Shown: in pieces, positions 24,085 through 25,027 of the stretch
Layout: the number at the start of each line of letters is the position of its first letter
How positions within the stretch are numbered: position 1 is the stretch's first letter
Assembly (NCBI GenBank): GCA_001929475.1
Contig: LXFE01000132.1
Coordinates: 1 to 55,613, forward strand
DNA: 55,613 nt
Source: Neolecta irregularis DAH-3
Taxonomy: Eukaryota; Ascomycota; Neolectomycetes; Neolectales; Neolectaceae
Reading direction: 5' to 3'
Made by a program: the position numbers and the translations under genes
Notes under the pieces: model-generated
The model's input: only the letters and a program-made list of their open reading frames with translations
Told to the model about the DNA's origin: nothing
The model's database searches: none

Positions 24085-25027
24085 TTAGCTACTTGACTCC
24101 TTGAGCAGTATTTCAAGAACCTTTTCTTGCTCTCTTCCTTGTGCATTACGGATATTTAAACTACGCATAGCCTCGATGACTTTTTCCTGTGTAAACCCCA
24201 TATTCTCGAAATCCGAGACAGATTCGCGATCGAGGCCATATAATTCAATCGGATCAATCTTTGGGTTATCTCCACAAGCATAGTTCTCTGCCCAATACTG
24301 TGCTGTCTCGTCAAAAGACTTTCTGTCCTTTATGTAATGGCTGGCAACTTGTGCGTCCTCTGATAAGTATACGCTAGTCGACCCCAATGTACCTGCGGGT
24401 CATTTGGCTCGGGCGTAGATAAAAGCGATTGTAGTGAGATGAGAGCAGAGCGAAGGCTAAGAACCGGAGACCTTGAGAATTAAAAAGGGAAAGAATTGGG
24501 TAGTATCGCCATTGGTCTTTCAGAATATCCAGACAGATTGCTCCCTGATATTATTCATATGACGGGCAGGGAGCCTCACCGTTTGAGACGAGATGTTGGG
24601 ATGGTATACCCTGGTGTCAAATTTCATTTTAGGCGGCTTGAAGGGGTAATCTTTTATTTTCAGTGAAACATAGCGCTTCCAATAGTGGTACCGTCCTGGA
24701 ATTCAGTTCCAAGGGGACATTGGGCGATACCGGAATAGCAATGTCTATTGTGAATAACCCCTCTGTCCAGTCAGGACCGCTCGAATGGAGCAGTCGCACT
24801 TTCATATGGCGTATCTGCCGGGCCCTTGAACTGGCCTTGGCATCAGTGTCTCGACTCGGCTTGCAATTGCACCTTTGAGATGGGCTGTTCCTGTGAGCAA
24901 GGCGGCAGACCAGAAAAAGGCACGTACTGACATCTGATCCCACGACCTGCAGTTCGATTCCCTGCGGCTTGTCTTTTCTGAATTCCTCCAGCTCTCGCAG
25001 AATACGGCGGGAGCGCGAGTCGGACAT
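24085..25027 (-). CDS. UBC1: Ubiquitin-conjugating enzyme E2 with UBA domain (Ubc1 / UBE2K)
   Basis: Class II E2 that builds K48 chains and works with the APC/C and ERAD. After removing eight introns the protein reads [81 protein letters not shown] (catalytic Cys in GAICLDIL), [38 protein letters not shown], then a C-terminal UBA domain ([21 protein letters not shown]). The junction IAIP-DDY needs a 4-nt exon GACG (24692-24695) between a 35-nt and a 41-nt intron. The junction DQW-SP needs a GC-AG intron (24472-24509). Start MSDSRSRR at 25025-25027. The gene is about 40% intron by length here. Confidence 0.93.

Follow-up and report, generated by a model that had tools for sequence, protein, structure and literature searches.

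The human gene MPC1 is reported to contain a constitutive 4-bp exon, and in minigenes its splicing persists with exons down to 1 bp; both flanking introns are spliced even at 0 bp, with the splice sites intact (PMC9929638). A 1-nt exon is described in CYP621A of Fusarium, with SRA reads in two species and 20 orthologues (PMC12940212). For plants, microexons of 15 nt or less are described, including 1-nt exons in APC11 and VPS55, and 2,398 microexons were catalogued with RNA-seq from 10 plant species (PMC8831610). Xlr2 of Trichoderma is reported to have a 20-nt microexon that is alternative and glucose-regulated; the same paper, citing Romfo et al. (2000) on intron definition, presents fungal microexons as previously tested only in Schizosaccharomyces pombe (PMC11121469).

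The window examined here is the whole stretch of DNA that was analyzed, 55,613 nt of contig LXFE01000132.1 from Neolecta irregularis DAH-3, and the assembly sampled comprises 8.96 Mb in 363 contigs. A UBC1-type ubiquitin-conjugating enzyme (E2) gene lies on its minus strand, and the sequence makes it very likely that this gene holds a constitutive 4-nt exon, GACG, between two short U2-type introns, each of which would probably be recognized across the intron, with the two removed successively. Similar to the exon described for MPC1, GACG is a 4-nt internal exon, not a multiple of three, between two introns; the core exon island of MPC1 takes in 67 bp upstream, whereas the whole upstream intron of UBC1 is 35 nt (PMC9929638). 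The case described in Fusarium CYP621A is likewise fungal, has canonical AG/GT flanks, and was found because a simple join could not restore a conserved motif, although it involves 1 nt in a 139-nt block and 56-nt median introns, compared with 4 nt in an 80-nt block in UBC1 (PMC12940212). The plant microexons, like GACG, are described as tiny coding exons overlooked by annotation (PMC8831610). The Xlr2 microexon, as reported, also belongs to an ascomycete, but it is 20 nt long and regulated, while in UBC1 both skipping and retention break the frame (PMC11121469). Since 4-nt and 1-nt exons have been published (PMC9929638, PMC8831610, PMC12940212) and the same genome has others of 6–12 nt, an earlier note on this DNA overstated the rarity of 4-nt exons. 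GACG is very probably a new example of a known phenomenon, with exons of 1–4 nt documented in plants, human MPC1, and Fusarium. Schizosaccharomyces pombe is a member of the Taphrinomycotina; a full-text search of the open literature for this group together with microexons found no paper, and one for a microexon in a fungal ubiquitin-conjugating enzyme gave a single match, which concerns soybean.

The gene model was built by spliced alignment to four homologues. Its nine exons measure 100, 12, 36, 32, 4, 71, 35, 79, and 273 nt, and GACG, which the earlier note had placed between exons 4 and 6, is exon 5. The features are given below, with scores and percentiles from a splice model trained on 105 homology-supported introns (termed true introns; see below).

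24085..25027, minus strand: UBC1-type E2 gene, ATG to stop, 9 exons, 213 aa (four-homologue spliced alignment; translation after joining the exons)
24885..24927, minus strand: intron 1, 43 nt (score -0.63, 12th percentile of true introns)
24873..24884, minus strand: exon 2, 12 nt, a second predicted microexon, restoring SDVTHLKG (aligned with each of the four homologues)
24836..24872, minus strand: intron 2, 37 nt (spliced alignment; score 3.40)
24763..24799, minus strand: intron 3, 37 nt (spliced alignment; score 2.45)
24731..24762, minus strand: exon 4, 32 nt, ending ...GCT ATT CCG in phase 0 (spliced alignment, translation)
24696..24730, minus strand: intron 4, 35 nt, GTATCG...TTCCAG, branch-like ACTGAAT (score 3.49)
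24692..24695, minus strand: exon 5, GACG, predicted 4-nt microexon comprising codon GAC and the first base of GAT (spliced alignment, shuffles)
24651..24691, minus strand: intron 5, 41 nt, GTACCA...TAAAAG, branch-like ACTGAAA (score 0.21)
24580..24650, minus strand: exon 6, 71 nt, starting AT TAC CCC TTC (spliced alignment, translation)
24545..24579, minus strand: intron 6, 35 nt, weak (score -1.41, 11th percentile of true introns)
24472..24509, minus strand: intron 7, 38 nt, which must be GC-AG (GCGATA...CTCAAG), with a weak donor (score -2.00, 7th percentile of true introns)
24358..24392, minus strand: intron 8, 35 nt, ending CAGAG, with the acceptor 2 nt beyond the first AG (score 1.50)
24676..24730, minus strand: rival single intron, 55 nt, GT-AG, in phase (enumeration; score -5.77)

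The encoded protein has the architecture of UBC1/UBE2K-type E2 enzymes: it has a UBC core (Pfam UQ_con, 155.4 bits) and, C-terminal to it, a UBA domain (UBA_3, 58.6 bits), both scores having been obtained with an earlier 215-aa version of the model. In E2 enzymes the catalytic cysteine sits after an HPN motif, and alignment to solved E2 structures places this cysteine in the joined protein. The best solved relative is 1tte, named E2-24 kDa, which we take to be yeast Ubc1. A protein search gave 6,852 matches, of which the best 120 were listed; the top five named among these are from Saitoella (two, 59% identity), Limtongia, Dipodascopsis, and Taphrina. Judged by this one protein, the organism would be a Taphrinomycotina-like ascomycete. 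For intron 1, a rival 37-nt form ending at 24891 scores -3.23 vs. -0.63 for the 43-nt form. Scanning the window for Rfam families and tRNAs gave no match. Its G+C content climbs to 0.56–0.58 at 14001-18000, compared with about 0.40–0.52 elsewhere in the window.

Joining exon 4, GACG, and exon 6 restores IPDDYPF, and GACG is required for this conserved motif. Its fit to the E2 family, as asserted in the earlier note, is borne out by the homologues: the pattern [IVLM]PxxYP[FY] is present in 117 of the 120 listed, and the other three read FPSDYPF, FPPDYPF, and VSSDYPF. All 120 have two residues before YPF, with none added, VSSDYPF being without the proline. Furthermore, a frameshift-tolerant spliced aligner chose the microexon with each of 38 homologues (those ranked 1 to 40 in the list of 120, minus two longer than 260 aa), which supports the interpretation first given to this stretch. 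GACG is a 4-nt internal coding exon, where the cited papers place microexons at 3–30 nt, and splice signals of the host-genome type occur on both sides of it, those of intron 5 being the weaker.

The splice signals were scored with two models. The first was self-trained, with no use of homology, on 230 kb of this genome (24 sequences); it has 42 introns with a median of 37 nt and a CTGAC-like branch motif near the acceptor. The gene finder so trained did not predict UBC1. The second was trained on 105 distinct introns in 25 genes, with UBC1 left out (98 GT-AG and 7 GC-AG), obtained by aligning E2 paralogues, small GTPases, and actins with the frameshift-tolerant spliced aligner; this true set was scored leave-one-out, and among the 25 genes L019 aligned weakly and with a frameshift. 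Because this aligner used the self-trained signals, the two models are not independent. Both were compared with 73,934 GT..AG pairs from sampled sequence of the same genome. Among the phosphatase loci L051–L056, L051 aligned, as did L053 and L056, which are one gene, and L052, L054, and L055 did not align; none of these loci is represented in the 105 introns. Seven GC-AG introns in 105 is high for a eukaryote; five of the seven have an AAG/GCA donor, and UBC1 intron 7 (24509-24472), with its weak donor, is a further case.

With the homology-trained model, intron 4 lies at the 99.90th percentile of GT..AG pairs and the 78th of true introns, and intron 5 at the 99.14th and 20th; the earlier note had described both as ordinary-looking. 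With the self-trained model, the corresponding percentiles are the 99.7th of GT..AG pairs and the 31st of its 42 introns for intron 4, and the 98.4th and 5th for intron 5. The weak acceptor context of intron 5 (AAAAG) counts against the microexon; introns 1, 6, and 7 of this gene are weak as well (7th–12th percentile of true introns).

Single introns were enumerated across this stretch for GT-AG, GC-AG, AT-AC, GT-AC, and AT-AG joins of at least 15 nt. What the earlier note reported on the microexon is confirmed for the sequence, strand, coordinates, lengths, GT-AG ends, and the restored IPDDYPF, but its statement that no single GT-AG intron has the right phase is wrong: four are in phase and stop-free, namely 24730-24676 (55 nt), 24718-24676 (43 nt), and two of 16 and 19 nt. 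The best of these is removal of the 55-nt intron, which would join ATTCCG to CGCTATGTT and yield a full-length 220-aa protein with a 7-residue insertion. When the acceptor of intron 4 is removed in silico, at a cost of 23–33 score units (median 26, 38 homologues), the aligner picks this 55-nt model, as shown for three homologues. However, its acceptor is without a genome-type branch motif and its length is unusual; its score lies at the 78th percentile of GT..AG pairs and about the 1st of true introns (66th and 2nd with the self-trained model), and it puts nine residues between IP and YPF, where no insertion occurs in the 120 listed homologues. We therefore regard a single 55-nt intron as very improbable. 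Other single joins in phase add residues, are too short, or have non-standard ends. The 43-nt intron scores poorly and would leave 13 residues, not two, between IP and YPF, the 16- and 19-nt introns are shorter than every one of the 105 introns, and IPVSPNYPF results from a 70-nt AT-AG join. A different pair of introns, the first of them 23 nt long (24718-24696; score -7.13), yields IPVSPNDDYPF.

An error in the assembly or in a base could also produce a coincidental microexon at a locus that truly has one intron. The assembly is fragmented, in 363 contigs, and two non-canonical splice sites elsewhere in the genome (in L037 and L051) could be base errors, which calls for some general caution about base errors or non-canonical splicing. 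The frameshift-tolerant alignment nevertheless still favors the microexon, and deletion of the whole 80-nt block (24651-24730) leaves two of the six required bases, so that an indel of a single base would not bring back the two residues. Chance was assessed with 20,000 dinucleotide shuffles of this block for each control. Any two-intron solution inserting exactly two residues arose in 59/20,000 shuffles, and in 603/20,000 when six bases at the start of the block and three at its end were held fixed; a solution as good as the real one arose in 0/20,000 in either case. Such an error has, in our estimate, only a very slight chance of explaining the locus.

The two sites in question are as follows. 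In L037, a RAN-type gene on the minus strand of its locus, a 36-nt stretch starting GTACCTCCCATAGCG has a CTAAT branch-like motif near its end, and HRK-KNLQ needs an intron ending in TG, not AG; this is either a GT-TG intron or a base error. In L051 (PP2A-type), a 36-nt intron at 1417-1452 with a CCAAG end and a CTAAT motif would restore LCEK-AREIL, with GG rather than GT as the donor; the aligner reported a frameshift here, and either a non-canonical site or a base error would account for it.

Spliceosomal twin introns (stwintrons), in which nested introns are removed in two steps with no exon between them, are reported from Ascomycota (PMC5639578, PMC6616335), and the 80-nt block is as long as two introns. 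In a stwintron the internal intron interrupts a splice signal of the external one; no nested GT-AG/GT-AG solution that restores the frame with the flanking motifs was found with each intron at 25–89 nt, and removal of the whole block shifts the frame. This explanation is the least probable of those weighed here, at the very edge of plausibility. On the sequence, no other gene model for UBC1 comes close to the one with the microexon.

Exons of similar size are predicted in other genes of this genome. In a RHO-type gene (L042), two such exons measure 6 nt (GACTAT, 1197-1202; FPK-DY-LPTVF) and 9 nt (GGACACAGC, 1408-1416, inside WDTAGQE), and the RAN gene (L037) has a 12-nt exon, GTCTGAGAGATG (1854-1865; GLRDGYY). 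The introns beside these microexons lie at the 99.5th to 99.98th percentile of GT..AG pairs. Single-intron alternatives at these two genes score worse or keep one intron, as compared without regard to stop codons: dropping the 6-nt exon needs an 80-nt intron scoring -3.10, and an 83-nt intron that keeps the length of RAN scores -6.23. Exons of 12 nt or less make up 3 of the 80 internal exons outside UBC1, in a sample that is small and not random.

The 105 introns measure 29–59 nt, plus one of 82 nt, and the 80 internal exons outside UBC1 range from 6 nt to 702 nt, which makes intron definition, as proposed in the earlier note, a sound interpretation. The single intron above 59 nt is the first aligned intron of a RAB1-type gene (L036); it has the length of two introns, yet its removal in one piece gives the expected MNPEYDYLF. 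Since one of the 105 introns has 82 nt, an 80-nt skip is not barred by length alone. Plant introns are longer.

With genome introns of about 37 nt, pairing of splice sites across the intron, one intron at a time, would be the natural mechanism. Introns 4 and 5 would each be recognized from the donor to the branch point and acceptor, over ~35–41 nt, and not across the exon; such pairing across short introns could account for inclusion of an exon of any length. The two introns would probably be removed one after the other, as the intron 5 donor begins 12 nt downstream of the adenosine predicted as the intron 4 branch point, which makes simultaneous assembly unlikely. Given the size of the spliceosome, the U2-side and U1-side complexes can hardly fit together within 12 nt. 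For plants, a microexon is likewise described as too small for simultaneous binding of both flanking introns (PMC8831610). Intron 4 has the stronger score and would thus probably be the first to go. GACG holds the first exon base of the acceptor and the three exon bases of the donor without overlap, and removal of either intron therefore leaves the signals of the other unchanged. From these features we infer the use of the GACG splice sites in RNA, the order of splicing, constitutive inclusion, and size-gated pairing.

By translation, skipping GACG shifts the frame, with a stop after residue 68, while retention of intron 4, intron 5, or both gives 81, 71, or 93 aa, respectively. Because skipping and retention all truncate the protein at 68–93 aa, regulated inclusion that makes a second working protein is unlikely.

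Introns were also mapped on 11 E2 paralogues, each named by type after the typed query that matched it best. At the position and phase of UBC1 intron 5, the UBC9-type gene carries a 41-nt phase-1 intron (PE-EYP vs. PD-DYP). A phase-0 intron sits one base earlier in the UBC7-type gene (FPK-DYP), and in the RAD6-type gene an intron lies just before YP. UBC1 intron 4 has no counterpart among the 11 paralogues, some of which aligned only partly. The simplest reading is that an old intron at position 5 was joined by a second one 4 nt upstream, although parallel gain may also have occurred. Two adjacent introns would fit better than an exon that arose inside one long intron, since introns 4 and 5 are both of the usual length. 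The idea that one intron is a duplicate of the other was rejected, since the two resemble each other to an ordinary degree (63rd percentile among 3,000 randomly drawn intron pairs).

The failure of a model trained on this very genome to predict UBC1 is a caution for gene finders. In UBC1 the two introns and the exon span 80 nt, with no room for an upstream island as in human MPC1, and together with the 6-, 9-, and 12-nt exons of the same genome, GACG may offer a compact system for the minimum exon size under intron pairing. We further suggest, tentatively and with more doubt than conviction, that the spliceosome of this lineage could be almost purely length-gated, pairing sites ~30–45 nt apart and leaving exon size nearly unconstrained, such that constitutive exons of 4–12 nt would be fairly common in housekeeping genes. 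If this were true, a length-gated genome would provide a natural setting in which to test how short an exon can be under intron definition.
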